Positions 31,870 to 46,618 of a stretch of 64,000 bases of DNA are shown one piece after another (the first letter of the stretch is position 1; each line of letters begins with the position of its first letter). Origin of the DNA: Roseococcus pinisoli (GTDB taxonomy: Bacteria; Pseudomonadota; Alphaproteobacteria; Acetobacterales; Acetobacteraceae); contig NZ_JAHCDA010000001.1 of the NCBI RefSeq assembly GCF_018413645.1, positions 992,001 through 1,056,000 on the forward strand, in the 5' to 3' direction. The notes under the pieces are model-generated. The model worked only from the letters and a program-made list of their open reading frames with translations, did no database searches and was not told the origin of the DNA. The translations under genes were made by a program, and so were the position numbers.

Positions 31870-34635
31870 ATGACGAGTGTCACGAGGCCCGATCAGCCCG
31901 CACCGTCACACCCGCTCGTCAGCATCGTGATCCCGGTTTTCAACGGGGCCGACTATCTGGCGCAGGCGATCGACAGCGCACTCACCCAGACCTGGCCAGC
32001 CATCGAGGTGGTCGTCGTCGATGACGGATCGGACGACGATGGTGCAACGCGTGCGATCATTTCCGGCTACGGCGACAGGGTGCGCCTCGTCGCCAAGCCG
32101 AACGGCGGTGTCGCGACGGCGCTGAACGCCGGGCTGGAAGCCATGCGCGGCGAGTGGTTCTCCTGGTTGAGTCACGACGATTTTTATCACCCCGAGAAGG
32201 TGGAGCGGCAGATGGCGGCGCTCGCGGGGGCTCCCGGGGACAGCATTGCCTTCGGCGGCTACGAGGTCGTGGCCGCTGATGGCAGCCAAATCGAGGTCAT
32301 CGACGCCTGCCGCGATTTCGATCCTGCGCGCCAGCTGTGGGCTGTGCTCGAGGGTCGCATCAACGGTTGCACGCTCCTCGCGCCGGCCCGCCTGCTACGG
32401 GAGGCCGGTGGCTTCGATTCCGGCTTGCCGACAACGCAAGATTATCACCTCTGGTTCACCCTCGCCCGCCGACACAGGCTCGTCCCGGTGTCCGACGCCC
32501 TGGTGAGCCATCGCCGGCACCCGAACCAAGGGTCCCGTTCCGAACGTCATCTCGTGGAAGCCGGGCTGCTCTGGGCCGAGATGCACGAACGCCTGACGCG
32601 CGAGGAGATGCAACATCTCGGCGGGTCGCATCTCGGTTTCCTGTGCCGGCTCCAACGCTTTTTGGACGCGTCGCCCTATCGCCTGGCGCAGGCTGCGGCG
32701 CAGGCCCGGATGGCTGAGTGCATGGCCGGCATTTCGGTGACCGTCGCCTGGGTACCGGATGGTGAGCCACAGATGGCTCCGGCGATCATGACACTGCAGG
32801 CCGCCGGCATACGCCAGTTGGACCAGGTGGTCATCGATTGGCGCAACGGGGCGATGTCCAGCTACGCGCTGCATCAGGCTATGCCAGGGGCAAAGGTCTT
32901 CATCGCCACCAGCGAGCGCCTCTTGCCTGCCGCTCTCGAAGCCGCGCTGCTCGGCGGCGAAGGCGCGCTGATCGTCTTTGCGGATTCGGCGACCGCGATG
33001 GATCCGGCGGCCTGGCGGCGAGGGCTCGAGGCGGTTGCGTCCGGAGAATGCGAGGCCTGGCCGCTGCCGCGCTTGGATACCGGCCGGTCAGTGCCGCCGC
33101 CCCTGTCGGGCGCGGTGCTGTCGCGATCCGCTTATGAGGGGGCGCTGGCCCGCCATGGCGATCCACACGCGGCGCTCGCCCAATTGCATTGGCCGCCGAC
33201 GGCCGTTAGCCCACCGCCACCGCCACCGCCACCGCCACCGCCACCGCCACCGCCACCGCCACCGCCACCGCCACCGCCACCGCCACCGCCGGAGGCCCCG
33301 GTCGCCCCAGTTGTCTCCAGCCCACTCCCCGGCGCGCGCCTCGGGGCATTTCGCCTGCTCAAGGCGGCATATCGGGCGCTCCCCTGGAGCCGGCGGCGCA
33401 CGACCGTGTGCGCCAAGGGGGAGCTCGAGATAACCGCGCTGCCTGCCTCACCGCCCGCTCCCGCGGCCGCCACGCCAGAAACGCCGCCCGACCCGCCGCC
33501 AGCCGCGCCGCCGGGCCGCGCAAGACTGCTCGTGCTCCATTCGCTCGGCGGTGGCACGCAACGCTATGCCGAGCTGCTCGGCCTGCACCTCCGGCAGCAC
33601 CGGATCGCGCCGGTCTTCGCCTGGGGCACGGACGGCAGCCGGCTGTTTGTCTCGACGGCCTCGCCTGCCATGGCCGAGCGCAGCTTCGTGCTTCCCGATG
33701 AGCTCGGCGACGCGGTCGCCTGGCTGCGCGAGCAGGGGGTCGATCGCGCCGATCTGCTGCACGCCATGGGGCTCGAGCAGCAGATCATGCCGCTGCTCTC
33801 GGCATTAGGCTGCCCCTACGACGTGACCTTCCTCGACTACCACCTAGTGGCCTCCACGCCGCATCTGATGAATGCAGATGCCCATACCGCCGCGCGCGGG
33901 CAGGCAGCAGAGGCGCGGGAACTGGCCCACCTGCTGCGGGCCGCGCCACATCCGGTCATAGATGGTGCCGCCAACCTCCTGGCCTGCAGCCGGGATCTCG
34001 CCGCCCGCCTCGGGCGTTTGGTGCCCGGGCTTGAGGTCCGGCCGGTAAGGCCGCCGGAGCCCGGCCGGCCCGAGGCCTTTCGCGTGACGCCGCCGCGACC
34101 GCTCGCCGGGAAGGAGACGCTGCGCATCCTGCAGCTGGGTGCCACGGCCTCCCACAAGGGCCGGCAGGCCATCATCGATGTCGGCCGGCTGATCAAGTCC
34201 CGCGGCCTGGCGATGGAGGTGCATGTCCTCGGTCATTGTCACTCGCCCCCGGAGCCGGTCGAGCAGAATCCGGGCACCGTCTTTTGGTACGGGAGCTTCG
34301 CCGCCGAGGACCTGCCCGCCCTCATCGGGTCCATTCGACCGCATCTCGCCTGGTTCCCCGCACGGGCGCCGGAGACCTTCGGCTTCGCGTTGTCCGAGGC
34401 GATGCTGCTCGGCCTACCGATCGTCGCGCAGGCGCTGGGCGCCTATGCCGAGCGCCTGGCGGATCGTCCCTTCACCTGGAGCCTGCCGCCCGACCACATC
34501 CTCTCGGGTGAGGAGTGGGTTGACCTGTTCATGACCCTGCGCGAGAGCGGGTTCTCGGCCCCGATCCGCCAGGCCCTGCCGCCCTCACTGCCCCCGCTCG
34601 ACGAGGAATTCTATCGCGATGCCTATTTGCGATGA
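31870..34635 (+). CDS. Two-domain glycosyltransferase (GT2-polyproline-GT4)
   Basis: 921-aa protein. Residues about 15-240 are a GT-A family 2 transferase (HPLVSIVIPVFNGADYLAQA, VVDDGSDDD, LSHDDFYHPEKVE). A linker follows that contains 27 consecutive prolines at residues 448-474. From about 550 to 900 there is a GT-B family 4 transferase (RARLLVLHSLGGGTQRYAEL, and the E-x7-E motif in ETFGFALSEAMLLGLPIVA). Two different transferase activities on one chain suggest ordered addition of two sugars. It has no signal or TM segment, so it is cytoplasmic. First gene of the plus-strand glycan operon. Confidence 0.88.
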   Translation: MTSVTRPDQPAPSHPLVSIVIPVFNGADYLAQAIDSALTQTWPAIEVVVVDDGSDDDGATRAIISGYGDRVRLVAKPNGGVATALNAGLEAMRGEWFSWLSHDDFYHPEKVERQMAALAGAPGDSIAFGGYEVVAADGSQIEVIDACRDFDPARQLWAVLEGRINGCTLLAPARLLREAGGFDSGLPTTQDYHLWFTLARRHRLVPVSDALVSHRRHPNQGSRSERHLVEAGLLWAEMHERLTREEMQHLGGSHLGFLCRLQRFLDASPYRLAQAAAQARMAECMAGISVTVAWVPDGEPQMAPAIMTLQAAGIRQLDQVVIDWRNGAMSSYALHQAMPGAKVFIATSERLLPAALEAALLGGEGALIVFADSATAMDPAAWRRGLEAVASGECEAWPLPRLDTGRSVPPPLSGAVLSRSAYEGALARHGDPHAALAQLHWPPTAVSPPPPPPPPPPPPPPPPPPPPPPPPPPPEAPVAPVVSSPLPGARLGAFRLLKAAYRALPWSRRRTTVCAKGELEITALPASPPAPAAATPETPPDPPPAAPPGRARLLVLHSLGGGTQRYAELLGLHLRQHRIAPVFAWGTDGSRLFVSTASPAMAERSFVLPDELGDAVAWLREQGVDRADLLHAMGLEQQIMPLLSALGCPYDVTFLDYHLVASTPHLMNADAHTAARGQAAEARELAHLLRAAPHPVIDGAANLLACSRDLAARLGRLVPGLEVRPVRPPEPGRPEAFRVTPPRPLAGKETLRILQLGATASHKGRQAIIDVGRLIKSRGLAMEVHVLGHCHSPPEPVEQNPGTVFWYGSFAAEDLPALIGSIRPHLAWFPARAPETFGFALSEAMLLGLPIVAQALGAYAERLADRPFTWSLPPDHILSGEEWVDLFMTLRESGFSAPIRQALPPSLPPLDEEFYRDAYLR
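33211..33288 (+). repeat. (CCACCG)13 hexanucleotide microsatellite encoding polyproline
   Basis: Thirteen perfect tandem copies of CCACCG, all in frame (Pro-Pro per unit), form the hinge between the two transferase domains. Gain or loss of units stays in frame and would only change hinge length by two residues per unit. Confidence 0.95.
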
Positions 34636-34680: not shown

Positions 34681-35550
34681 ATGACCATGCGCGTTCTCGT
34701 TCTCGGAGCGAGCGGTATGCTCGGACAGGCGATGTACAGCGTCCTCTCGGCGCATCGCGGGCTTGAGGTGAGCGGCACGCTGCGCAGCGAAGGGTCGCGC
34801 CGCCTGTTTCCGGCGGCGTTGCAGGCAAGCCTGGTCGCCGGCGTCGACGCACTCGACATCGACGCGCTCGCCGCCTGCCTTGCCGAGCGGCGCCCCGATG
34901 TCGTCATCAATTGCGTCGGCCTCGTGAAGCAGCTCCAGGAAGCCGAGGATCCGCTTCGGGCCTTGCCGATCAACGCTCTTCTGCCGCACCGCCTGTCGCG
35001 CCTCTGCGCGCTGGCGGGCGCCCGGCTGATCCAGATCAGCACGGACTGCGTGTTTCGCGGCGATCGCGGCTCCTATACGGAGGACGACGAGTCGGATGCG
35101 ACCGACTTCTACGGTCGCTCGAAGCTACTGGGCGAGGTGGATGCGCCGCATGCCGTGACGCTGCGCACCAGCATCATCGGCCGGGAACTCGCGAGCCGTC
35201 ATGGGCTGGTAGAGTGGTTCCTCGCGCAGACGGGACAGGTGCGCGGCTTCACCCGCGCGATCTTCAGCGGACTGACGACCGATGCGCTGGCCGATGTCGT
35301 GGCGCAGCATCTGCTGCCGAAACCCGAGCTCCGCGGCGTCTGGCATGTCGCGGCCGCCCCCATCGCGAAGCACGAGCTGCTGCTGATGCTGCGTGAGGTC
35401 TACGAACGCGACGTCGAGATCGTGCCCGATGACACGCTGCGTATCGACCGCTCGCTAGACGGCGGCCGGTTCCGTGCCGCGACCGGCTTCGTGGCGCGGC
35501 CATGGCCGGAGATGCTGCGGCAGATGCGCATGCGGAGCCTCCGGCCATGA
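34681..35550 (+). CDS. RmlD-like sugar-nucleotide reductase (SDR), WbvR/CapF-type step
   Basis: 289-aa extended SDR with VLGASGMLGQAM at the N-terminus, STDCVFRGDRG and YGRSKLLGE (YxxxK), and family resemblance to dTDP-4-dehydrorhamnose reductase. Placed directly before CapE-like and CapG-like genes, it should reduce the 4-keto-6-deoxy-L-hexosamine made by CapE. CapF of the L-FucNAc pathway is about 370 aa with a C-terminal cupin; that cupin is missing here, which fits the RmlD-like WbvR of UDP-L-RhaNAc/L-QuiNAc routes. The stop overlaps the next start (ATGA). Confidence 0.82.
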   Translation: MTMRVLVLGASGMLGQAMYSVLSAHRGLEVSGTLRSEGSRRLFPAALQASLVAGVDALDIDALAACLAERRPDVVINCVGLVKQLQEAEDPLRALPINALLPHRLSRLCALAGARLIQISTDCVFRGDRGSYTEDDESDATDFYGRSKLLGEVDAPHAVTLRTSIIGRELASRHGLVEWFLAQTGQVRGFTRAIFSGLTTDALADVVAQHLLPKPELRGVWHVAAAPIAKHELLLMLREVYERDVEIVPDDTLRIDRSLDGGRFRAATGFVARPWPEMLRQMRMRSLRP

Positions 35551-36581
35551 CGGCGACCAACATTATCCGTGACCGAACCATCATGGTGACGGGCGGGACG
35601 GGCTCCTTCGGCCATGCCGTGACGCGCCGTTTCCTGCGCGATGGCGCGCGGGAGGTCCGCATCCTGTCGCGTGACGAGAAGAAGCAGGACGACATGCGCC
35701 GGCGCTTCGGCGACCAGCGGCTGAAGTTCTTCCTGGGAGATGTGCGGGAATATCGCAGCGTGCTCGATGCCATGCAGGGCGTCGAGCTCGTCTTCCACGC
35801 AGCGGCCCTGAAGCAGGTGCCGTCCTGCGAGTTCCACCCCATGGAGGCAGTGCGCACCAACGTCCTCGGCGCGGAGAACACCATCGCCGCGGCCGTGGCC
35901 TGCGGAGTCCGCTGCCTGGTTGCATTGAGCACCGACAAGGCCGTCTACCCCATCAACGCCATGGGACTGTCCAAGGCGCTCATGGAGAAGATCGTCGTCG
36001 CCAAGAGCCGCTCGGCCGGCCCGACGACGCTCTGCATCACGCGCTACGGCAACGTCATGGGTTCGCGGGGCTCGGTGATCCCGCTCTTCATGCGCCAGAT
36101 CCGAGAAAGGCGTCCGCTGACCATCACGGATCCGCACATGACGCGCTTCCTGATGTCGCTGGAGGAGTCGGTCGATCTCGTGCTGCATGCCTATGCCCAT
36201 GCCCGGCCCGGCGACACGTTCGTCCGCAAGGCTCCTTCCTGCACCGTCGGCACCTTGGCGGAAGCGGTCCAATCGGTGCTCGGCAGCCGGCTGTCGGTCG
36301 AGATCATCGGCACTCGGCACGGCGAGAAACTCTACGAAACCCTGGTGTCGCGCGAGGAAATGGTCCGCGCCGAGGATATGGGCCGGTTCTATCGCATCAG
36401 CGCCGATGCGCGGGACCTCAATTATGAGAAGTTCTTCAGTGACGGAGAGCCCTCGATCTCCGACGCTGTGGACTACAGCAGCCACAACGGCGAGCTGCTT
36501 GGCCCGGATGCCGTGGAACGACTGCTGCGCGACCTCGACTTCATGCGCGGCGAACGGTCGCAACAGCACGACGCGGCCTGA
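35547..36581 (+). CDS. UDP-GlcNAc 4,6-dehydratase/5-epimerase, CapE/WbvB-like
   Basis: 344-aa SDR of the polysaccharide-biosynthesis CapD/CapE group. Nucleotide site VTGGTGSFGHAVTRRFL, then FHAAALKQVPSCEFHP, and STDKAVYPINAMGLSKALME, in which the usual catalytic Tyr is Met (MxxxK), as in CapE. It would convert UDP-GlcNAc to UDP-2-acetamido-2,6-dideoxy-L-arabino-4-hexulose and its epimers. ATG 35547 sits in the ATGA overlap with the reductase; a longer frame upstream is rejected. The 2-epimerase follows 3 bases after its stop. Confidence 0.88.
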   Translation: MTATNIIRDRTIMVTGGTGSFGHAVTRRFLRDGAREVRILSRDEKKQDDMRRRFGDQRLKFFLGDVREYRSVLDAMQGVELVFHAAALKQVPSCEFHPMEAVRTNVLGAENTIAAAVACGVRCLVALSTDKAVYPINAMGLSKALMEKIVVAKSRSAGPTTLCITRYGNVMGSRGSVIPLFMRQIRERRPLTITDPHMTRFLMSLEESVDLVLHAYAHARPGDTFVRKAPSCTVGTLAEAVQSVLGSRLSVEIIGTRHGEKLYETLVSREEMVRAEDMGRFYRISADARDLNYEKFFSDGEPSISDAVDYSSHNGELLGPDAVERLLRDLDFMRGERSQQHDAA

Positions 36582-36584
36582 CCG

Positions 36585-37700
36585 ATGCGCAAGGTAATGA
36601 CGATCCTCGGCACGCGGCCGGAGCTCATCAAGATGAGCCTGGTCATCGAGCGGCTCGACCGGGTGACGCAGCATGTGCTGGTGCATACCGGGCAGAATCA
36701 CGACTACACGCTGAACAAGGTCTTCTTCGACGAACTCGGTATCCGCCAGCCGGATCATTTCCTTGCTGTGGCGGGTAGCGGTCCGATCGATACGATCGCC
36801 AGGGTGCTGACGGCCGTCGATGCCGTGCTGGAGCAGGAACGGCCCGATGCCGTGCTGATCTACGGCGACACGAATTCCGGCCTGGCGGTGATCCCCGCCA
36901 AGCGCCGCCGCATCCCGGTCTTCCACATGGAGGCAGGCAATCGCTCCTTCGACCAGCGCGTGCCTGAGGAACTGAACCGAAAGATCATAGACCATCTGAG
37001 CGACGTCAACATGACGCTGACGGAACACGCGCGCCGCTACCTGCTTGCGGAGGGCCTGCCGCCGGATCGCGTCTTCAAGGTCGGCTCGCATATGGAGCAG
37101 GTGCTCCAGCGCTACCGCCCGCAGATCGACGCCTCGGACATCCGCGAGCGCCTGGGCTTGCAGGCCGATCGCTACTTCGTCGTCAGCCTGCATCGCGAGG
37201 AGAATGTCGACGCGCCGGATCGCCTCCGCCACGGGCTGGACTGTCTGGAGTGCGTGGCGGAGAGCTTCGGCTGGCCGGTCATCGTCTCGACCCATCCGCG
37301 GACGCGCAAGCGCCTGACGGATCTCGGCGCCGAGGCCTCACCCCTGATCCGCTTCCTGCCGCCCTTCGGCTTCCCCGACTACATCCACCTCCAGTCGCAC
37401 GCCCATTGCGTGCTGTCCGACAGCGGCACAATCACCGAGGAAGCCGCTCTGCTCGGCTTTCCCGCCGTGATGCTGCGCGATGCGCATGAGCGGCCGGAGG
37501 GCATGGATGCGGGCGTGCTGGTCATGTCGTCGCTGCATCCCGATCGCGTGATGGAGGCGATCGCCTGCGTCCGCAGTGGCCTACCCGAGCGGGCCGCTGG
37601 GCGGGTGCCGGACTACGAGGCGGGGGATGTGGCGGGAAAGGTTGTGCGCATAGTATTGTCGTACATCGATCAAATCAATCATTTGGTCTGGAGATCGTAG
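36585..37700 (+). CDS. Non-hydrolysing UDP-N-acetyl-hexosamine 2-epimerase, CapG/WbvD-like
   Basis: 371-aa epimerase of the WecB family: ILGTRPELIKMS at the N-terminus, HTGQNHDY, YGDTNSGLAV, HMEAGNRSFDQRVPEE, LHREENVD, and SDSGTITEEAALLGFP at the UDP site. As third enzyme after CapE- and RmlD-like genes it should invert C2 of the 6-deoxy-L-hexosamine nucleotide, yielding UDP-L-FucNAc or UDP-L-QuiNAc. Length and motifs are complete. About 130 bases separate it from the next transferase gene. Confidence 0.88.
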   Translation: MRKVMTILGTRPELIKMSLVIERLDRVTQHVLVHTGQNHDYTLNKVFFDELGIRQPDHFLAVAGSGPIDTIARVLTAVDAVLEQERPDAVLIYGDTNSGLAVIPAKRRRIPVFHMEAGNRSFDQRVPEELNRKIIDHLSDVNMTLTEHARRYLLAEGLPPDRVFKVGSHMEQVLQRYRPQIDASDIRERLGLQADRYFVVSLHREENVDAPDRLRHGLDCLECVAESFGWPVIVSTHPRTRKRLTDLGAEASPLIRFLPPFGFPDYIHLQSHAHCVLSDSGTITEEAALLGFPAVMLRDAHERPEGMDAGVLVMSSLHPDRVMEAIACVRSGLPERAAGRVPDYEAGDVAGKVVRIVLSYIDQINHLVWRS

Positions 37701-37833: not shown

Positions 37834-40338
37834 ATGATCAGCGAAGGTCGCGCGGAACGCCGGAAGCCACCGCGGGTCACCGTCGTCACCCCCACCTACA
37901 ACCGCGCTGATCTCATCGGCCTCACCATCCAGAGCGTCCTCAGCCAGACGTTCCGGGACTTCGAATACCTCATCATCGATGACGGCTCCTCTGACACCAC
38001 GGAGGCGGTCGTTCTGGGCTTTGGCGATCCCCGACTGGTCTATCTGCGCCACGAGAATCGCGGCGAGGCCGCGACGACGAATCGCGGTTGGGCCATGGCA
38101 CGTGGCGAATACTTCGCGGTGCTTTCCTCCGACGACTTGGTGACGCCAAACTGGCTCGAGCGCATCGTGGCCCTGATGGACGAGAAGCCGGAGCTTCTGG
38201 TCGCGTATCCGGACTACGACGTCATCGACGGTGCCGGGTGCCGACAGCAGGACATCCTGCTGCCGGATTATGATCGCGACCTCATGATCGGCTGTTTCCG
38301 GACGATTCCCGGCGTCGGGACCCTGATTCGTCGCGCGACGCTGCCGGACATGCATCGACTGCGGAATCCCGACTACCGCCACGCGCCGGATCTGGATTCC
38401 TGGCTGCACCTGTCGCTGCGTGGCCCCTTCGCGCGCCTGCCGGAACGGCTGGCGTCCTGGCGCAGCCATGCGGGTTCCATCACCGTTGCCGAGCGCAATC
38501 GCGCCCGCGCCGACGAGCTTCTTCGCATTGCCAGCCGCTTCTTCGACACGTCGGGGCTACCCGCGGATGTCATCCGCCTCCGGCGTTTCGCGATGGCGGA
38601 GGCCCAGGCCCTCGCTGCCTGGATCCTGCAGGACAGCAATCCGCTTCGGGCGGCGCTTCACCTTCGGCAATCCTACAGTATCTCGCCCGCGCAACTTTCC
38701 TTCGTTCCAGCGTATTGGCGTCGCGAGGAGCAGCCGGATAACCGCTTCCTCCTCCGGCTCCTGGTACGCAGCCTTCGCCACCGCACCCTGCGAAGACTCC
38801 GGAGCGTCGCGATGCGGCTTCCGGCGAGGGTTCGGCGGCCGCTTCGGCGCGGCGCGGAACAGCTCGGCCTCGTGGCGCCCATTCCTGCGAGCATGACGCC
38901 ACCTGCCGCCCCACCGCCACCGCCGGTCGAATCGAATGCACCGCTGCCGGCGCCGCTTTCCGTCGATGTGACGCCACCGGCCGAAGCGAGTGCACTGCCT
39001 CCGGCGCCGTTAGGGGACGAGGCGCAACAGCGGCTCGACGCGCTCCTGCCGCAACTGCGCGACGACCTGAGCGCATTCCGCCACATCGTCGCCCCGCTCT
39101 CGCCGACGCCGACAGTCCTGAATCATCTGCGCGCGGGGGTCCATAGGCTCGCCACGCCCTCCCTCGGCCTCCTGATGAGCCGGGCGATCGACCATCTGCC
39201 GTCCCGGATCGATCACCTCCTCCTCCTGCCATGGATCAGTGGTGTGGGCGGTTCGGAAACCGTCACCGCACGTCTGATCGAGGCTCTGCGACGCCTGCGG
39301 GACGAGGCCGGGATCTGCATCATCGCTCCTGACGGCAGCCAGCCCGCGACCGGCGCCCGCCACCATAACGGCATCGCCTTTCTCGGCTTGTCGGACATCG
39401 ACGCATCGATGGATGATGGCGCGCGGCAGGAGATCCTGGATCGCATCCTCATTCAGCGCCGGCCCGGGACCGTGCATTGCATCAACAGCCGCATCGGGTG
39501 GCTGGCATTCCGCGACCGAGCTCGCCAATACGCCGCGGACAGTGCGCTCTTCGCGAACATCTACAGCGACATCCGCCTCGGTGATGGCGCCCCGGCCGCC
39601 CTCTATTATTACGACTTTCTGCCGCACTGCATCGAGCATCTCGCCGGCGTGCTCGGCGACAATTTCACGATCCTCCGCAAGGCGGCCGCAGCTTTCGGTG
39701 CAGGTGCCTCGGCCGGGGAAAGAATGCATGTCGTGCGCACGCCGGTCATCGGGCTTGGCGGGGGCGATCCGGCACGGGATCTGCGGCTCTTCCAGCCCTC
39801 GGCGGAGCGTCGCTCGCTGTGGCTCAGCCGCATCGCGGCGGAAAAGCGCCTCGACATTGTCGCACGTCTCGCCGAGCGCTTGCCGGCACGCCGTTTCGAG
39901 ATGTTCGGCGACAGCGGCATGGCTTCGGTCGACCTCTCCGAGCTCCGCGCTCAACCCAATGTGACCATCCCCGGCGCCTTCCGGTCGCTGGGCGACATCG
40001 CGATGGACGGTTTCGATTCCTACGTCTTCACCACGTCGGGCGAGGGCATGCCGGTGGCGTTGCTCGAGGTCGCGGCATGCGGCCTGCCCGTCATCGCGCC
40101 GGATATCGGCGGCATAGGCGAATTCGTCACCGATGATACCGGCTGGCTCGTTCCGACGGCCGGGACCGTGGCGCAGTATGCCGATGCCCTGGCGCAGATC
40201 GAAGCGGCGCCGGAGGAGGCGCGCCGTCGGGTGCAGGCGGCACAGGCCCTGTTGTTGCGCGACTATAGCCGGGACGCCCTCGACCGCAGCCTGGCATCCA
40301 TACCTGGCTACCTGGGCAGGTCCGATGACCGGCATTGA
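37834..40338 (+). CDS. Second two-domain glycosyltransferase (GT2-GT4)
   Basis: 834-aa protein with the same plan as the 921-aa transferase. GT2 domain (about 10-250): VTVVTPTYNRADLIGLTIQS, IIDDGSSDTTE, LSSDDLVTPNWLE. Next comes an Arg-rich region, then a proline/alanine linker at about 350-395. The GT4 domain (about 455-800) has LLLPWISGVGGSETVTARL, LWLSRIAAEKRLD and TTSGEGMPVALLEVAACGLP. The C-terminus overlaps the next gene by 14 bases. Sugar specificities unknown. It is presumably involved in assembling the repeat unit that carries the 6-deoxy-L-hexosamine. Confidence 0.87.
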   Translation: MISEGRAERRKPPRVTVVTPTYNRADLIGLTIQSVLSQTFRDFEYLIIDDGSSDTTEAVVLGFGDPRLVYLRHENRGEAATTNRGWAMARGEYFAVLSSDDLVTPNWLERIVALMDEKPELLVAYPDYDVIDGAGCRQQDILLPDYDRDLMIGCFRTIPGVGTLIRRATLPDMHRLRNPDYRHAPDLDSWLHLSLRGPFARLPERLASWRSHAGSITVAERNRARADELLRIASRFFDTSGLPADVIRLRRFAMAEAQALAAWILQDSNPLRAALHLRQSYSISPAQLSFVPAYWRREEQPDNRFLLRLLVRSLRHRTLRRLRSVAMRLPARVRRPLRRGAEQLGLVAPIPASMTPPAAPPPPPVESNAPLPAPLSVDVTPPAEASALPPAPLGDEAQQRLDALLPQLRDDLSAFRHIVAPLSPTPTVLNHLRAGVHRLATPSLGLLMSRAIDHLPSRIDHLLLLPWISGVGGSETVTARLIEALRRLRDEAGICIIAPDGSQPATGARHHNGIAFLGLSDIDASMDDGARQEILDRILIQRRPGTVHCINSRIGWLAFRDRARQYAADSALFANIYSDIRLGDGAPAALYYYDFLPHCIEHLAGVLGDNFTILRKAAAAFGAGASAGERMHVVRTPVIGLGGGDPARDLRLFQPSAERRSLWLSRIAAEKRLDIVARLAERLPARRFEMFGDSGMASVDLSELRAQPNVTIPGAFRSLGDIAMDGFDSYVFTTSGEGMPVALLEVAACGLPVIAPDIGGIGEFVTDDTGWLVPTAGTVAQYADALAQIEAAPEEARRRVQAAQALLLRDYSRDALDRSLASIPGYLGRSDDRH

Positions 40339-41041
40339 TCTTTCCGTCGTCCTGGCCGTGGGCCGGGAGGCCGCTGCGCTGCACGCGACCCTCTTCGCGT
40401 TGCGGCGTGCGGCGGGCGCGCTGGCGCCAGGCATCGGCATCGAAGTGCTGTTGCTGCACGATCCCGATACTTCGGATCTTGCCGCGCGCTTCGCTGGCGA
40501 CATGGACGCCATGTGCCTGCGCCCACTCGCGCTGATCGATCCGCTGGATGCTCAGCGTCATGCTGTCGCCTCGGCCCGGGGGCGTTATCTGGCCTTCCTC
40601 ACCGCCGGCGATCTGTGTTCGGGCAACCTTCTGACCGAGGCCATGTGTGTCATCGGGCGCGAGGACCTGCGCCATTCCGTATGGCGCCCCGAAGTCATCG
40701 TGTCCTGCGGTCGTAACTACTTCGACCTGGCCTTGGATACGGTCCTTCAGGAGCCGATGCTCAACCAGGCGGCCGGCGCCGGGTTGTTGCAATCCTGCCC
40801 CTATGCCACGTGCTTCTTCGCCCATCGCGCGGTGTATCAGCGCGTGCCCTTCCCGATGGCCGATGCCCGGCGAGACTGGTTGGACGTGGATGCCTGGTGG
40901 ATTGCCAACTGCCTGGGTGCCGGTATCGCCCAGCGCATCCTCGCCGGCACGGCGCTGTATCGATGGAACGCGGAGCAACCCTTGCCGTATGCCACGCGCA
41001 TAGGACCCAGCACGCTCTTCAATCCGTATGTGATGCCATGA
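40325..41041 (+). CDS. Small GT2-like glycosyltransferase
   Basis: 238-aa protein starting within the end of the preceding transferase gene. It begins IDLSVVLAVGREAAALHATL, with a GT-A-like order of strands and the segment SARGRYLAFLTAGDLCSGN at the place of the GT2 S-D-D motif. The acidic DxD is replaced by TAGD, so catalytic competence is doubtful. The C-terminal half (about 110-238) has Trp/Tyr-rich segments without a known motif. It is either a divergent GT2 or an acceptor-binding homologue. Its stop overlaps the epimerase start (ATGA). Confidence 0.6.
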   Translation: MTGIDLSVVLAVGREAAALHATLFALRRAAGALAPGIGIEVLLLHDPDTSDLAARFAGDMDAMCLRPLALIDPLDAQRHAVASARGRYLAFLTAGDLCSGNLLTEAMCVIGREDLRHSVWRPEVIVSCGRNYFDLALDTVLQEPMLNQAAGAGLLQSCPYATCFFAHRAVYQRVPFPMADARRDWLDVDAWWIANCLGAGIAQRILAGTALYRWNAEQPLPYATRIGPSTLFNPYVMP

Positions 41042-41961
41042 CGTCTGCGCTTGTCACCGGAGCCACCGGCTTCATCGGAGCGGCGCTGGTCCGTGTCCTG
41101 CTCGCCTCGGGTTGGGACGTGCAGGCCGTCGGCCGCCGCCCCGCCGCGGTGCGCACCCACCTGCTCGACATCGAGGACGTGTCACGGGATGGATTGCTTG
41201 ATCTGCTGAAGCAGAGTGGGTGCGACGTGGTCTTCCACCTCGCGGGCACCGCCGGCGGCGCCGGGGCTTCGCTGGAGCGGGTGAATGTCGGTTTTGCCAA
41301 GGCGCTCCTGGAAGCCGCAGCCCTGGCGCCGCGGCGCCCCTCCGTGGTTCTGGCCGGAACGGCAGCTGAATACGGCGAAGTGTCGGAACGCGATCTGCCG
41401 GTCCGCGAGGATCATCCCTGCCATCCGGCTACGCCCTACGCAGCCAGTAAGCTGCGACAGACCCAGCTTGGCCTCGCGGCCGCCGCCACGGGGCAGACCG
41501 TTTATCTTCCGCGCCTGTTCAACGTCGTCGGCTGCGGGATGCGCCCGCACTTGGCGCTCGGCCGCTTCGCGCGCGAGGTCTCGGCGCTGGGCAAGGATGG
41601 CGGTGTGCTCACCACTGGGCGGCTGGACGCCTATCGGGACTTCATCGCGCTGGACGATGCGGTTCGCGTGCTGATCGGGCTGAGCCAGTCTCCATCGGCG
41701 GCTGGCCGCGTGGTCAACCTGTGCTCGGGCGTGCCGCTGCGCATGGATCACATGCTGGACGCCTTGTTGCAGGCGACCGACGTGCCGGTAAGGCTCGAGA
41801 TCGATACGGCCCTTTCGGGTGTCAGCGCCGTACCGTGCATGTATGGCTGCACACGTCGGCTTGCGTCCCTCGGCTTCACCTTGGCTGTGCCGGACGTCGC
41901 CGCCGAGATGGCGCGGCTGCTCAACGGATACGATGACGCCATGATGTCGACCGCATGCTGA
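41038..41961 (+). CDS. NAD(P)-dependent sugar epimerase/reductase (extended SDR)
   Basis: 307-aa SDR: VTGATGFIGAALVRVLLASG, then VFHLAGTAGGAGASLERVNV, catalytic LAGTAAEYGE and YAASKLRQTQ (YxxxK), LPRLFNVVGCGMRPH and a DAYRDFIALDDAVRVL binding segment. Members of this type reduce or epimerise 4-keto sugar nucleotides, e.g. GDP-6-deoxy-lyxo-4-hexulose reductase (Rmd). It could complete the pathway begun by the LegB-like dehydratase on the opposite strand; that link is inferred. It starts in ATGA coupling with the GT2-like gene. Confidence 0.82.
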   Translation: MTSALVTGATGFIGAALVRVLLASGWDVQAVGRRPAAVRTHLLDIEDVSRDGLLDLLKQSGCDVVFHLAGTAGGAGASLERVNVGFAKALLEAAALAPRRPSVVLAGTAAEYGEVSERDLPVREDHPCHPATPYAASKLRQTQLGLAAAATGQTVYLPRLFNVVGCGMRPHLALGRFAREVSALGKDGGVLTTGRLDAYRDFIALDDAVRVLIGLSQSPSAAGRVVNLCSGVPLRMDHMLDALLQATDVPVRLEIDTALSGVSAVPCMYGCTRRLASLGFTLAVPDVAAEMARLLNGYDDAMMSTAC

Positions 41962-42434
41962 TCGGGGCGATCAGGGACATGGTCGCGCCCGGGCCGCAGC
42001 GCGTGCTGCTCGATCTGCGCGAAGGCGGCGGGATGCGCGGCTTTCACCTGACGGCGAGCCTGTCCCATCTGATGGCACACGGCGTCGAGGCCGAATTCTG
42101 GGCCATCCATGCGGACAAGGACGATGTCCTGCTGGAACTCGAGCTGATGCGCCGCCGCAGCGATCAGCTGATCCTTCGCTGGACGCCGAACGTCCCCGCG
42201 GTCCGCTTCTCGTATTATGTCGCCATGGCGGACGCGCTGCCGCATGGCTCCACCTGGGACGCTGCAAGGCGCTGCTGTCGGCACGCCATCCTGGGCCTGA
42301 TGTTTCCCGATCCCGGCACAAGGCCGAAGAAGAACATGACCATTCTCGACGGCCACGACCTCCGTGCCTTCGCAATGTCCCTGGAAACGCGTCTGCAGCC
42401 GCGTACCGGCTTGCGCCGCCTGCTTGGCGCATGA
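41955..42434 (+). CDS. Unrecognised 159-aa protein in the glycan operon
   Basis: The family is not recognised. Soluble, mixed alpha/beta look: GAIRDMVAPGPQRVLLDLRE, an LMRRRSDQLILRW strand, FSYYVAMADALPHG, and a C-terminal helix. Two adjacent cysteines occur in ARRCCRHAILGL. No signal or TM segment. It overlaps both neighbours by a few bases, so it is translated in step with the SDR and the GT4 gene and is probably a real operon member rather than noise. Confidence 0.6.
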   Translation: MLIGAIRDMVAPGPQRVLLDLREGGGMRGFHLTASLSHLMAHGVEAEFWAIHADKDDVLLELELMRRRSDQLILRWTPNVPAVRFSYYVAMADALPHGSTWDAARRCCRHAILGLMFPDPGTRPKKNMTILDGHDLRAFAMSLETRLQPRTGLRRLLGA

Positions 42435-43624
42435 CGACGCGCCTTCTCGTCATCGGTCTGGCCAATAGCCCGCATCTGCACCGCTGGGTGCGGGCAGTGG
42501 CGGATGCGGATATCAGCGTCCTCGTTTTCCCCGCTCTGCAGGGGCAGGGCTGGGACGGGCTCGACACCGTCTCCATGGCGGAGCTCCAAGAGGATCTGCC
42601 GCCCGGCATCCATTGCCTCGACGCCCGTGACGTGCGCGGCGACGATTCCGCGGCCATCGACCGCGATTGGCGGTTCCAGCCGCTGACGCATCAGTTCGTT
42701 CCGGTCGGGGCTCTGGCCGCCGCCGATCGCCTGGCCGAGGCCGTCACGCGCTTCCGCCCCGATCTCCTGCACAGCATGGAGAGCCAGATCGCCGGCTATA
42801 TCGTCGCCGAGTTGTGGCGGCGGCAGCCGCGCAGCCTGCCCTGGATCCACTCCACCTGGGGCAGCGATCTCGCGCTCTACGGCAGCTTGCCGGATCACGA
42901 AATCCGGCTGCGGGCCATGTTCCGCGGCGTGGATTTTCATCTGGCGGATTGCCGCAATGATCTCGGTCTGGCCCGGAAGCTGGGTTACATTGGACCTGAA
43001 CTGCCGGTACTGCCATCGAGCTGCGGCATCGATGTCGCGCAGCTTACCGCGCGGCCCTCCCTGCCGCCCTCGCAGCGCCGCCAGATCCTCGTCAAAGGCT
43101 ACCAGAACTGGGCTGGCCGCAATCTGTCGGCCCTGTCCGCCCTGATGCTCATCGCCAAGGAGGTCGAGCCCTACGAGATCGTGATTCCGAACGCCGATGC
43201 CGCGTTGCGGGAATGGGCTGGCATCATGGCCAACCGCACCGCCCTGAAGGTGACCGCCTTGCCGCGCCTGCCCGAACCGGAGAACGTGCTGACAGAGCTG
43301 GCCCGCTCGCGTCTGCTCGTTTCGCTCAGCATTTCCGATGGCCTGCCGACGATGATGCTGGAGGCCATGGCGCTCGGCGCCTTTCCGATTCAGAGCGGCG
43401 CCGGCTGCGGCTGCGACTGGTTCGAGGATGGCGTCACCGGCTTCTCCGTGCCGGTGAACGATACCGCCGCGGTGGCTGACGCCATCTCCAGGGCCCTGCG
43501 CGACGACCGCATGGTCGACGCCGCGGCGACGCGCAACCTCGCTACTGTGAGCGAGCGTTGGGATGCGGCCACCAATGCTGCCATCGCGCGCGCCGTGTAC
43601 CGGCGTGGGATGGAGGGGCGTTGA
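42431..43624 (+). CDS. Family 4 glycosyltransferase
   Basis: 397-aa GT-B transferase. The N-terminal Rossmann strand LLVIGLANSPHLHRWVRAVA is typical of PelF/WbaZ-like GT4 enzymes. In the C-terminal half come the retaining-GT elements ILVKGYQNWAGRNLSALSAL, a loop with LPRLPEPENVLTELARSRLL, and the E-x7-E motif region SDGLPTMMLEAMALGAFPI. Donor sugar unknown. ATGA-coupled to the gene before it and TTGA-coupled to the one after it. Confidence 0.85.
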   Translation: MTTRLLVIGLANSPHLHRWVRAVADADISVLVFPALQGQGWDGLDTVSMAELQEDLPPGIHCLDARDVRGDDSAAIDRDWRFQPLTHQFVPVGALAAADRLAEAVTRFRPDLLHSMESQIAGYIVAELWRRQPRSLPWIHSTWGSDLALYGSLPDHEIRLRAMFRGVDFHLADCRNDLGLARKLGYIGPELPVLPSSCGIDVAQLTARPSLPPSQRRQILVKGYQNWAGRNLSALSALMLIAKEVEPYEIVIPNADAALREWAGIMANRTALKVTALPRLPEPENVLTELARSRLLVSLSISDGLPTMMLEAMALGAFPIQSGAGCGCDWFEDGVTGFSVPVNDTAAVADAISRALRDDRMVDAAATRNLATVSERWDAATNAAIARAVYRRGMEGR

Positions 43625-44751
43625 GCACCCCGCCTCTCCCCACCCTGCCGGCGGACTGGACCTACGGGCAGGGGCTGGAGTGCGACGCGGCGATTCGGGC
43701 GCATATGGCCGAGCACGGCTTTTCGGCCGAGGCGATAAGCGCGCTGGCGCAGGTCAGGCTTGGCCGCTGCGCCTACCAGTCCGCGGTAGCGGCGCTTGAG
43801 GAAGGTCTGTCGCGCGGGCCGGACATCAATCAACCCTATCTCGGCGTCAGCGGGCGGCTTCTGGTGATCGCCGCGGCAATCCATGGCGGGCGGCAGGGCG
43901 AGGCCGAACGCTGGGTGGCCGACCTCGCCCGTCATCCTGTCGTCTGGCCCTACGCCGCCGACCCGATCCTCCGTCATGTCCGTGGGACGGGCTTGCAGAA
44001 CGCGGCACGCGACCTGCTCGCAGGCTGCCTTCCTCACCTCGATCCAGACACACCGCTGGCTCAGCAGGCGACCACCCTGCTTCGCGGCTACGACGAGGCG
44101 CTGGCCGTCGCCTCGAAGGTGCGGCTCATCTCGCTGGGGTCGGGCTGCTATCCCTGGATGCAGCCCAACCGCTACATGCTGCGCCATGTCGATGCCGTGG
44201 ACGCGCTGATGCCGTTCAACATGAGCGTCACGGTCGAGAGCAGCATCGTCCTGGCGCTCGAGGACGGCTTCTCGGCCTTCTTCGACGCCGCGGCCTTCGA
44301 TCTTACGACCATCACGCGCGGCATCCCGGTTGGCCGCATCCGCCGCTACGCCATGCTGTTCAACCACGATTGCGACGAGGATTTTCTGCGGGATGGGATG
44401 GCGGAGCTTCGTGCGCGCTGCGCGAGGCGCGCGCATAATTTCCTCGCCGAAGCCTGTACCGGACCGCGCGTCTTTCTCTGCGTGCTGCCCGAGGTCACGG
44501 ATCTGCACCGCCTGGAAACAGCCCTCGCGGGCCTGATGCGGGACGAGGCGTATCGCCTGCTGGTCCTGCTGACTTCTCCGAGCGAAAAGCCAGGCCTGCC
44601 GGCACCACGGCTGCCGACCACGCGCGTCGTGCCCCTGCCTGTGCCGTCACCGAGCTACAACTGGACATTGGAGGACGGCACCCCCGAAGGCATCCGCTAC
44701 GATCTCGCGATGCGGCAGACCGTCCTCGATACGATGCGGGAACTGGCATGA
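43621..44751 (+). CDS. DUF1796-like papain-fold protein, putative cysteine peptidase
   Basis: 376-aa protein starting at TTG inside a TTGA overlap. The first 160 residues are helical and repeat-like. From about 168 the segment LISLGSGCYPWMQPNRYMLR followed by LMPFNMSVTVESSIVLAL resembles DUF1796 (SLG-x-x-C ... L-R ... FD), a papain-like domain with presumed nucleophile Cys176. A matching His-containing segment is LFNHDCDEDFLRDG. Such domains occur in exopolysaccharide and glycan loci with unknown substrate. Its stop overlaps the acyl-ligase start. Moderate certainty on family, low on activity. Confidence 0.6.
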   Translation: MSTPPLPTLPADWTYGQGLECDAAIRAHMAEHGFSAEAISALAQVRLGRCAYQSAVAALEEGLSRGPDINQPYLGVSGRLLVIAAAIHGGRQGEAERWVADLARHPVVWPYAADPILRHVRGTGLQNAARDLLAGCLPHLDPDTPLAQQATTLLRGYDEALAVASKVRLISLGSGCYPWMQPNRYMLRHVDAVDALMPFNMSVTVESSIVLALEDGFSAFFDAAAFDLTTITRGIPVGRIRRYAMLFNHDCDEDFLRDGMAELRARCARRAHNFLAEACTGPRVFLCVLPEVTDLHRLETALAGLMRDEAYRLLVLLTSPSEKPGLPAPRLPTTRVVPLPVPSPSYNWTLEDGTPEGIRYDLAMRQTVLDTMRELA

Positions 44752-46370
44752 CGGCCTGCGGCAATCGCTTCCTGGAGCGCCTGGCCGGGATACTCGCCGC
44801 CGATCCAGAGCTGCCCTTCGTCTATCTGCGCCAGAACGACGCCTATCTGACCGTCACCCGTTCCGAGCTTGCGGGAAGGATGGGCGCGCATGCGGCGGCC
44901 TGGCGCGCGGCGGGTGTCGGGGAAGGCGACGTCGTCTTCATCATCCTGCGGCATGGTGCCGACGCCATGCCCGCCTTCCTCGCCGCAATGTGGATCGGCG
45001 CCGTCCCGAGCTTCCTGCCCTTTCCCAATCCGCGCCAGGATCTCGCGCTCTATCGAGAGGTCCATGCGACCGTCCTGCGCCGGACGGGGGCCAAGGCACT
45101 GATGGCCGAACCCGACCTGGCGGCGGAGTTCCTTAACCTGCTCGGGCCGCAGGCGACGGCCGTGCTGGCGCCGCCTGCGGTCGGCTGCACCGCGCTCCTC
45201 CCGCCGCCGGCGGCGATCGCGGAGGAAGGTGCGGCATTGCTGCAGCATTCGTCAGGCACCACTGGCCTCAAGAAGGGCGTCGTTCTCAGCTACCGCGCCG
45301 TCCTGGCGCAGCTGGACGCCTATGCGCCGACGCTCGGCCTCGATCCGCGATCCTGCGTGGCGAGCTGGTTGCCGCTCTATCACGACATGGGACTGATCGC
45401 GTGCTTCCTCCTGCCGAGCGTGTCCGGGGTTCCGATCGTGGCCCTCGATCCCTTCGAATGGGCCCTGAAGCCGCAGCTGCTCCTGGAAGCCATCGGGCGG
45501 TTCCGCGCAACGCATGTCTGGATGCCGAATTTCGCCTTCGCGCATCTCACGCGAGGCGTGCCGCGGAACGAGCGCTACGACCTGTCCTCGGTGGCGATGC
45601 TGATCGGCAGCTCGGAGACGAACCGCGGCCACACGCAAGATCGCTTCCTCGCGCGCTTCGGCTCCCATGGGTTGCGGGCGGGTACGCTGCAAACCTCCTA
45701 CGGCATGGCGGAGACCGTCTTCGCCGTCAGCCAGTCCCAGCGTGGCGTGGAACCGCGCCGCATCGGCATCCGCATCGAGAATGCCTGCGTGTTTCCTGGG
45801 GATACCGAGCTGCTGTCCAACGGCAAACCATTGGCGGGCGTGGAGATTAAAGTGCTGCACGGAGGCCGGATGCGCAGCGAGGAACGCATCGTCGGCGAGC
45901 TCTGCGTCGCTTCGCCCTTCAACTTTTCCGGCTACCTCGGCAGCGGCGGTACACCTGACCGTTTCCACCGCACCGGCGATATCGGTTTCCTCGACGAGGG
46001 CGAGGTCTTCGTGCTGGGGCGCATCAAGGATCTGATCATCGTCAACGGGCGCAACATCTACGCGCATGATGTCGAGGCGGCGGTCAATGACGTTCCCGGC
46101 ATTCACCCGGGGCGATGCATTGCCCTGGGCGTGGCGTCCGACCGCACGGGTTCGGAGGAGATCGTCGTGATCGGAGAGACGTCGGCGCCGTCGCCGGATC
46201 TCGTCGCCGCGGTGAATCGGGCCGTGCTTGCGCATTTCGGGATGCCCTGCGCGGCGGTCGAGCTGGTGCCGCCAGGTTGGCTGGTCAAAACCACCTCCGG
46301 TAAGGTGTCGCGAGAGCGGAACCATCAAAAGTATCTGATCCGGGCGGCGCATGCCGATGCAACGCCATGA
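44748..46370 (+). CDS. Acyl-AMP ligase (ANL superfamily, FAAL-like)
   Basis: 540-aa adenylate-forming enzyme. The P-loop SSGTTGLKKG lies at residues 168-177, the A5 motif region has LQTSYGMAETVFAVSQ, the A7/A8 motifs read HRTGDIGFLDEGEVFVLGRI then KDLIIVNGRNIYAHDVEA, and catalytic Lys lies in the C-terminal KTTSGKVSR. NGRNIYAHDVEA is typical of fatty-acyl-AMP ligases that load carrier proteins rather than CoA. The adjacent ACP gene (ATGA overlap) is the likely acceptor. The acyl substrate, fatty or amino/hydroxy acid, is undetermined. Confidence 0.87.
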   Translation: MTACGNRFLERLAGILAADPELPFVYLRQNDAYLTVTRSELAGRMGAHAAAWRAAGVGEGDVVFIILRHGADAMPAFLAAMWIGAVPSFLPFPNPRQDLALYREVHATVLRRTGAKALMAEPDLAAEFLNLLGPQATAVLAPPAVGCTALLPPPAAIAEEGAALLQHSSGTTGLKKGVVLSYRAVLAQLDAYAPTLGLDPRSCVASWLPLYHDMGLIACFLLPSVSGVPIVALDPFEWALKPQLLLEAIGRFRATHVWMPNFAFAHLTRGVPRNERYDLSSVAMLIGSSETNRGHTQDRFLARFGSHGLRAGTLQTSYGMAETVFAVSQSQRGVEPRRIGIRIENACVFPGDTELLSNGKPLAGVEIKVLHGGRMRSEERIVGELCVASPFNFSGYLGSGGTPDRFHRTGDIGFLDEGEVFVLGRIKDLIIVNGRNIYAHDVEAAVNDVPGIHPGRCIALGVASDRTGSEEIVVIGETSAPSPDLVAAVNRAVLAHFGMPCAAVELVPPGWLVKTTSGKVSRERNHQKYLIRAAHADATP

Positions 46371-46618
46371 CGATCCTCGACACGCTCGGCGCCGTCCTTC
46401 GCCGTACCTTTCGCCAGCCGAATCTCGTCGTCAGCCGTTCGATGTCGGCGGCCGATGTGCCGGGCTGGGACTCCCTGAATCACCTCTTCCTGGTCATGGA
46501 GCTGGAAGCGGAATTCGACGTGGACATCGCCGCCGACGAGGTCGCCCGCCTGCCGGATATAGGAGCGCTGGCCGACCTCGTGGCTGAGCGCCTGGCGCGC
46601 AAGGACACACCCGGCTGA
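46367..46618 (+). CDS. Acyl carrier protein
   Basis: 83-aa carrier protein. The phosphopantetheine serine is S36 in GWDSLNHLFLVMELE, followed by the acidic helix EAEFDVDIAADEVARL. It is translationally coupled to the acyl-AMP ligase and is the last gene of the plus-strand glycan operon. It should present the activated acyl group to a transferase; none of the acyltransferase families (MBOAT, GNAT, Acyl_transf_3) is obvious nearby, making the DUF1796-like protein or an unlinked enzyme the candidate. Confidence 0.9.
   Translation: MTILDTLGAVLRRTFRQPNLVVSRSMSAADVPGWDSLNHLFLVMELEAEFDVDIAADEVARLPDIGALADLVAERLARKDTPG

Follow-up and report, generated by a model that had tools for sequence, protein, structure and literature searches.

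Why would a bacterial glycan operon end in genes for an acyl-activating ligase and an acyl carrier protein (ACP), and which protein would use the acyl group that such a pair can provide? This question is raised by a stretch of 64,000 nucleotides (the window) from the 4.79 Mb genome of Roseococcus pinisoli (contig NZ_JAHCDA010000001.1, positions 992,001 to 1,056,000). The last three genes of an operon on its forward strand encode a DUF1796-like protein with an SLGxxC motif (43621–44751, + strand, TTG start, 376 residues), a fatty acyl-AMP ligase (FAAL)-like enzyme (44748–46370, + strand, 540 residues), and an ACP (46367–46618, + strand, 83 residues). We refer to the first protein and its homologues as family A. 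In our judgment, these three genes probably form an ACP-dependent glycan acylation cassette, in which the family A protein moves an acyl group via Cys176 to a sugar of the locus. A first-pass annotation of the same DNA had proposed that a dedicated ligase–ACP pair is coupled to the DUF1796-like protein, and the comparisons described below support this proposal.

The cassette would operate in three steps. Judging from the protein families, the FAAL would adenylate a carboxylic acid and load it onto the phosphopantetheine arm of the ACP. The family A protein, a candidate ACP-dependent acyltransferase, would use acyl-ACP as donor, and its Cys176, with assistance from His249, would most likely carry the acyl group as a thioester. 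Finally, a sugar that the locus makes or transfers would receive the acyl group on a hydroxyl or amino function. By eye, rather than by a predictor, the family A protein shows no signal peptide or membrane segment, and transfer would be cytoplasmic, with a sugar nucleotide or a lipid-linked glycan as the acceptor.

The ligase, the carrier, and the family A protein

The ligase contains an AMP-binding domain (PF00501, E 9.4e-46). Its best solved relative in a search of PDB sequences, 3pbk, bears the name fatty acyl-adenylate ligase, and the AMP ligases FadD23, FadD28, and FadD32 are among the 17 PDB sequences found at E ≤ 1e-20. With this domain, and with solved relatives nearer to FAALs than to CoA ligases, we class the enzyme as a FAAL. 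With regard to the FAAL-specific insertion, a crude pattern count, made without structure alignment, places 41 residues between the YGMAE and GxP motifs. The same count gives 23 (L001), 24 (L008), and 23 (L004) residues for other ligases of this genome, but 34 (L007) and 58 (L003) for two more, and the spacing also varies among related FAALs.

The carrier passes the Pfam cutoff for PF00550 narrowly (E 3.2e-4; 21.3 bits against 20.8). It combines a PP-binding domain with the DSL serine, which lies within a GWDSL phosphopantetheine site. Its closest solved relative is 2lml (E 2.4e-15), which we take to be GmACP3, a Geobacter ACP linked to lipopolysaccharide; through this match we compare the window ACP with specialized carriers of the GmACP3 type.

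The family A gene starts with the TTG at 43621, a few bases downstream of a GGAGG sequence. Counted from this start, the cysteine of the SLGSGC motif is indeed residue 176, as the first-pass annotation had it. Alignment of 19 family A proteins, including that of the window, shows seven invariant residues: G173, C176, P198, H249, P342, W348, and G357. DUF1796 (PF08795) follows the same order of SLGxxC, PF, and His that family A presents with C176, P198, and H249 (by eye, the sequence L174 shows this order too); this motif description is our own and not Pfam's. Nevertheless, the window protein scores under the gathering threshold of PF08795 (E 0.066; 13.5 bits against 23). Five of ten family A members match DUF1796 at E ≤ 1, with a best E of 0.0041. 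At E ≤ 0.1, no other family was listed for the window protein; in particular, BtrH_N (PF14399) gave no match. The word DUF1796 did not occur in any paper of the literature searched, and the main text of a 2023 census of papain-like families names neither DUF1796 nor PF08795.

The third gene of related ligase–carrier loci

Evidence for an acyltransferase role comes from the neighborhoods of related FAALs. Relatives of the window FAAL were collected at E ≤ 1e-60 with at most three candidates scored per genome, so that the set covers this type of FAAL and not FAALs in general. This search yielded 43 matches in 40 of 397 Acetobacteraceae genomes, window included. All 43 surroundings were searched with profiles for family A, FAAL, ACP, and two further families, WcbI and one that we call family B, on gene calls made by a crude script. 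Family B is characterized by the motif FESLGxNCEFG and was found beside other FAAL–ACP pairs; its 15 aligned members share one invariant cysteine and one invariant histidine.

A family A gene stands directly upstream of FAAL and ACP, in the same order and on the same strand, in eight of the 43 loci (the window, L067–L069, L103–L105, and L198), four of which (L069, L104, L105, and L198) contain two such genes in tandem. Fourteen loci have family B as their partner (L076–L080, L084, L086–L089, L091, L093, L094, and L199), and nine have WcbI (L072, L083, L090, and L096–L101). The WcbI count may be too low, as the Pfam model covered 200 genomes and our own profile was used for the other loci. L090 was counted as WcbI on the basis of a Pfam match 0.9 kb from the FAAL that our own profile missed; the locus is labeled "other" on the FAAL tree and also contains a weak GDSL match (E 0.0095). 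Two loci have other partners, namely Acyl_transf_3 (L071) and an AlgX-like acetyltransferase (L092). In all 31 loci with a family A, family B, or WcbI match, this match lies at most 1 kb from the FAAL or the ACP match. In L087 and L096 the partner adjoins the ACP, and the FAAL is located about 6 kb and 3.5 kb away, respectively.

A ligase–carrier pair without the DUF1796-like gene, the finding that the first-pass annotation had named as speaking against its idea, therefore occurs in the literal sense in 35 of the 43 loci. However, 25 of these 35 contain another candidate acyltransferase (in 14 cases family B, a distant relative), which argues for replacement of the gene rather than for its irrelevance. 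A constant ligase and carrier combined with exchanged third families fits a module with an interchangeable acyltransferase part, and from sequence comparison the third position looks like an exchangeable acyltransferase slot. On a FAAL tree of 39 rows, the labels A, B, and WcbI require at least seven changes; therefore, the partners have been exchanged. The window FAAL is nearest to that of L067 and falls outside any well-supported group. The FAALs of L084 and L096 are very similar (tree distance about 0.02), and their loci share other genes but contain family B and WcbI, respectively. We rejected this pair as a clean natural swap, because the FAAL of L096 is short (about 400 residues of the domain, with only query residues 161–534 matched).

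Searches centered on the carrier point in the same direction. Among 114 ACP matches in 200 genomes of the family, at least 56 have a family A, B, or WcbI match within 6 kb, at least 36 within 2.5 kb, and at least 26 within 1.5 kb. For family B, 131 of the matches listed, with E values up to 7.5e-23, were used, and 19 weaker ones listed were dropped. If genes were scattered at random over a 4.4 Mb genome, about one ACP match would be expected to have such a neighbor within 6 kb, a figure not corrected for the clustering of glycan genes. Of the eight family A matches, five have such an ACP within 6 kb. The families also co-occur at the level of genomes. All six genomes other than the window's with family A encode this FAAL, compared with 22 of 199 overall (P 9e-7). 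The corresponding numbers are 12 of 62 for family B, among the matches listed (P 0.014), and 13 of 51 for WcbI (P 4e-4). Conversely, 21 of 22 FAAL genomes contain family A, B, or WcbI anywhere, compared with 86 of 199 overall, again among the matches listed (P 7e-8).

How are these third proteins related? Profile comparison joins families A and B with P 2.2e-5 in one run and 8.5e-7 in another; in the latter alignment the cysteines coincide and the invariant histidines are off by a few columns. Shared ancestry between WcbI and families A and B found no support (hhalign P 0.42 for family A), and a second comparison (P 0.0054) was not accepted since it relied on TPR-like columns only. According to the cited parts of the report on its crystal structure, WcbI binds CoA and holds the acetyl group with Cys14 and His201; no activity was detected, and a partner was proposed to be necessary (PMC4104973). 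This source leaves WcbI as no more than a CoA-binding protein in which activity has not been detected. It shares with family A a Cys/His pair, placed in WcbI at the acetyl-CoA thioester (PMC4104973, cited parts), and adjoins FAAL and/or ACP in the slot that family A holds in the window, yet it has no detectable sequence relation to family A.

These comparisons lead to a broader and more tentative proposal, which we put forward as a possibility. The SLGxxC proteins of families A and B may constitute a new superfamily, whose members would be soluble glycan acyltransferases that depend on ACP, adopt an undescribed fold, and form a Cys-acyl intermediate. They would be functionally interchangeable with WcbI, and the missing donor of WcbI would then be FAAL-loaded acyl-ACP.

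TPR repeats occur in some of the family B, WcbI, and AlgX-like partners (L077, L078, L079, L092, and L100; by Pfam for L077, L092, and L100), and L079 contains four consecutive family B genes. At the thresholds used, the window genome encodes neither family B nor WcbI, and the WcbI model (PF18588) matched neither the window protein nor any other protein of this genome. A phylum-wide search found family B in one of 200 genomes at E ≤ 1e-10. Family A is rare, with eight matches in seven of 200 genomes of the family, the window's included. A class-wide search of 385 genomes returned only the window itself, and plasmids searched with the family A protein contained no match at E ≤ 1e-3. In a metagenome-assembled genome of the Caulobacteraceae, a family A gene is directly followed by an ACP gene (L111:1-1038), with no FAAL in the 6.6 kb covered. 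The FAAL was not found at E ≤ 1e-60 in the 13 same-genus genomes listed, and the cassette therefore looks like an accessory trait of the source genome.

Counterevidence and rival roles

A number of observations weigh against an acylation cassette of this kind. No candidate transferase was seen in ten of the 43 FAAL loci (L074, L081, L082, L085, L095, L102, L106, and L195–L197), although two of these lie on short contigs (L081 and L082) and three are cut at a contig end (L095, L102, and L195). The best 20 ACP matches include only nine with family A, B, or WcbI nearby, among the matches listed. Family B and WcbI also occur frequently elsewhere: 46 of the 131 family B matches listed and 18 of 81 WcbI matches have such an ACP within 6 kb, and the other 85 and 63 do not. 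Clustering of polysaccharide genes alone could bring such families together. Three of the eight family A matches (L070, L073, and L075) have neither FAAL nor ACP in the fetched stretch. In Acetobacter sacchari, three tandem family A-like genes (L112:5455-9295) have no FAAL in 12.7 kb, and the nearest ACP match is 3.6 kb away. Some DUF1796 relatives lack the cysteine (L180, L181, L183, L186, L187, and L193, by eye). As to the ligase, its top NCBIfam match is PRK07768, named long-chain-fatty-acid-CoA ligase, at 272 bits against a cutoff of 572; fatty acyl-AMP ligase and MbtM models rank next, and all models shown score under their cutoffs.

The fold of the candidate transferase belongs to the same account. 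The AlphaFold2 model of the window protein has an overall pLDDT of 77.1. Its N-terminal half is helical; from residue 201 on, blocks mostly reach pLDDT 89 to 97, with dips to 59 and 79. C176 precedes a helix formed by residues 177–184. The family B model has a pLDDT of 86.3. At E ≤ 0.001, Foldseek matched neither model to a PDB structure. Sequence searches against the PDB gave marginal matches for family A, mainly to helical repeat proteins (best E 0.0015), and no match for family B at E ≤ 1. As predicted, the order of strands and helices in both models looks Rossmann-like.

These results bear on the papain fold that the first-pass annotation assigned to the window protein, a label that it owed to the name of the Pfam family. 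This fold is not supported, since the DUF1796 match is under the cutoff and Foldseek found no solved relative, and the predicted order of elements looks Rossmann-like; however, a missing match is no proof of a different fold. A role of the protein in acyl transfer, which the annotation suggested to proceed through a thioester, is supported in part: Cys176 and His249 are invariant, and the slot is acyltransferase-like by comparison.

Could an acyltransferase encoded elsewhere perform the transfer? The first-pass annotation saw no acyltransferase at the locus, and we agree insofar as none is listed among 20 window proteins scanned for domains, a subset of the window's open reading frames (ORFs). 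The source genome as a whole contains three Acyl_transf_3 and three MBOAT matches, all outside the window. One of these proteins might pass the acyl group charged by the FAAL and ACP to the glycan, with family A as an accessory or adaptor protein, the N-terminal half of which is perhaps TPR-like. The highest Foldseek probability for the window model indeed belongs to a TPR protein (0.85, but with E 0.57). Related carriers also occur with such enzymes. From the 58 ACP matches without family A, B, or WcbI we took eight (L200–L207) and scanned five in part (L201 and L203–L206). An MBOAT gene stands directly beside the ACP gene in four of these five (L201, L203, L204, and L206), in a Dlt-like arrangement, and in L205 about 2 kb separates the ACP from an AlgX/GDSL protein. 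The FAAL is absent from the fetched stretch in all eight, so that these loci support a role for the ACP but not the cassette as a whole. On the other hand, no MBOAT or Acyl_transf_3 gene lies in the window, 23 other FAAL loci have family B or WcbI in the position of family A, and the invariant Cys176 and His249 would be unusual in a scaffold. We consider an unlinked transferase unlikely.

Alternatively, the family A protein might serve to clear acyl-ACP, as a thioesterase or an editing hydrolase. A Cys/His pair is equally fit for hydrolysis, and the same association with the ACP would be expected. Yet acyltransferase families replace family A in sibling loci, and a dedicated ligase would be wasted on acyl groups destined for removal. 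A hydrolase role strikes us as quite improbable.

The glycan operon and comparable systems

With ACP-dependent acylation as the preferred role, we turn to the genes that could provide its acceptor. A GT4-type glycosyltransferase (42431–43624, + strand, 397 residues; PF00534, E 1.6e-11) is encoded immediately upstream. The coordinates and the junction sequences (ATGA at 42431, shared with the upstream ORF, TTGA at 43621, and ATGA at 44748 and 46367) bear out the earlier observation that the genes for GT4, DUF1796-like protein, FAAL, and ACP overlap by four bases each. The chain is longer than was first noted. Further upstream, still on the + strand, it continues with a 159-residue ORF that has no Pfam or NCBIfam match and overlaps both neighbors (41955–42434), an NAD-dependent epimerase/dehydratase identified by Pfam (41038–41961), and a 238-residue ORF without a Pfam match (40325–41041, scanned as 40133–41041) that appears GT2-like by eye. 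The overlaps at 41955 and 41038 measure seven and four bases, respectively. The ORF at 40325 overlaps its preceding gene by 14 bases, so that the chain starts at 40325 or earlier. Judging from the overlaps alone, translation of these genes may be linked in steps.

The preceding + strand gene encodes a two-domain glycosyltransferase of 834 residues (37834–40338; GT2 and GT4 by Pfam). Upstream of it are genes, also on the + strand, for a WecB-like member of the UDP-GlcNAc 2-epimerase family (36585–37700, by Pfam and NCBIfam; putatively FnlC-like in role), an FnlA-like UDP-GlcNAc 4,6-dehydratase/5-epimerase (35502–36581; TIGR04130 at 472 bits, under the cutoff of 730), and an RmlD-like reductase identified by domain matches (34681–35550, putatively FnlB-like). 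The presence of these three genes together suggests synthesis of UDP-l-FucNAc, with the reservation that the FnlA match is under its cutoff. A second two-domain glycosyltransferase is encoded at 31870–34635 (+ strand, 921 residues; GT2 and GT4 by domain matches); in translation, an uninterrupted run of more than 20 prolines lies between the two domains.

That the product is instead a small acyl metabolite or a modified protein, with the cassette's place in a glycan operon being incidental, is the least probable reading: lipid or polyketide pathways are what FAALs usually supply, and the few neighbors scanned in three loci of one genus (L074, L082, and L085) are aldolase-like, porin, chemoreceptor, solute-binding, and ABC proteins rather than glycan genes, but in the window short overlaps tie the cassette to glycosyltransferase and sugar-nucleotide genes, and no ketosynthase or NRPS (nonribosomal peptide synthetase) family is listed among the scanned genes.

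Charging of a carrier for the acylation of sugars has precedents. In Dlt-type D-alanylation, the ligase DltA and the carrier DltC act together with the MBOAT protein DltB and with DltD. The layout of AMP-forming ligase, small carrier, and acyltransferase for modification of an envelope polymer is common to both systems, and relatives of the window ACP stand beside MBOAT genes as described above. However, no MBOAT or DltD family is listed among the scanned window genes, although no DltD-specific search was made; the window's transferase candidate is soluble, as judged by eye, and its ligase is FAAL-like. In butirosin biosynthesis, BtrJ and BtrI have the roles of ligase and carrier. The third component, BtrH, is described as a papain-like ACP:aminoglycoside acyltransferase in the cited part of PMC10318531, and papain-fold transacylases that act with ACPs were proposed earlier, in the part of PMC2922099 cited here. 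The Btr system thus likewise combines a ligase-charged carrier with a soluble cysteine acyltransferase, and its acceptor is an amino sugar (PMC10318531, cited part). In contrast, family A lacks a BtrH_N match and its model has no match to a papain-like structure, and the acceptor of the window cassette would be a glycan precursor. A literature search by title for FAAL, ACP, and glycan found no such cassette.

Acyl groups on surface glycans influence recognition by the immune system, the binding of phages, and the properties of biofilms. The cassette described here would turn the unstudied DUF1796-like family into a testable enzyme class, for which the three genes provide a ready experimental system. 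For WcbI, it raises the prospect that this protein may take its acyl group from ACP and not from acetyl-CoA, with FAAL-loaded ACP as a candidate for the missing partner.

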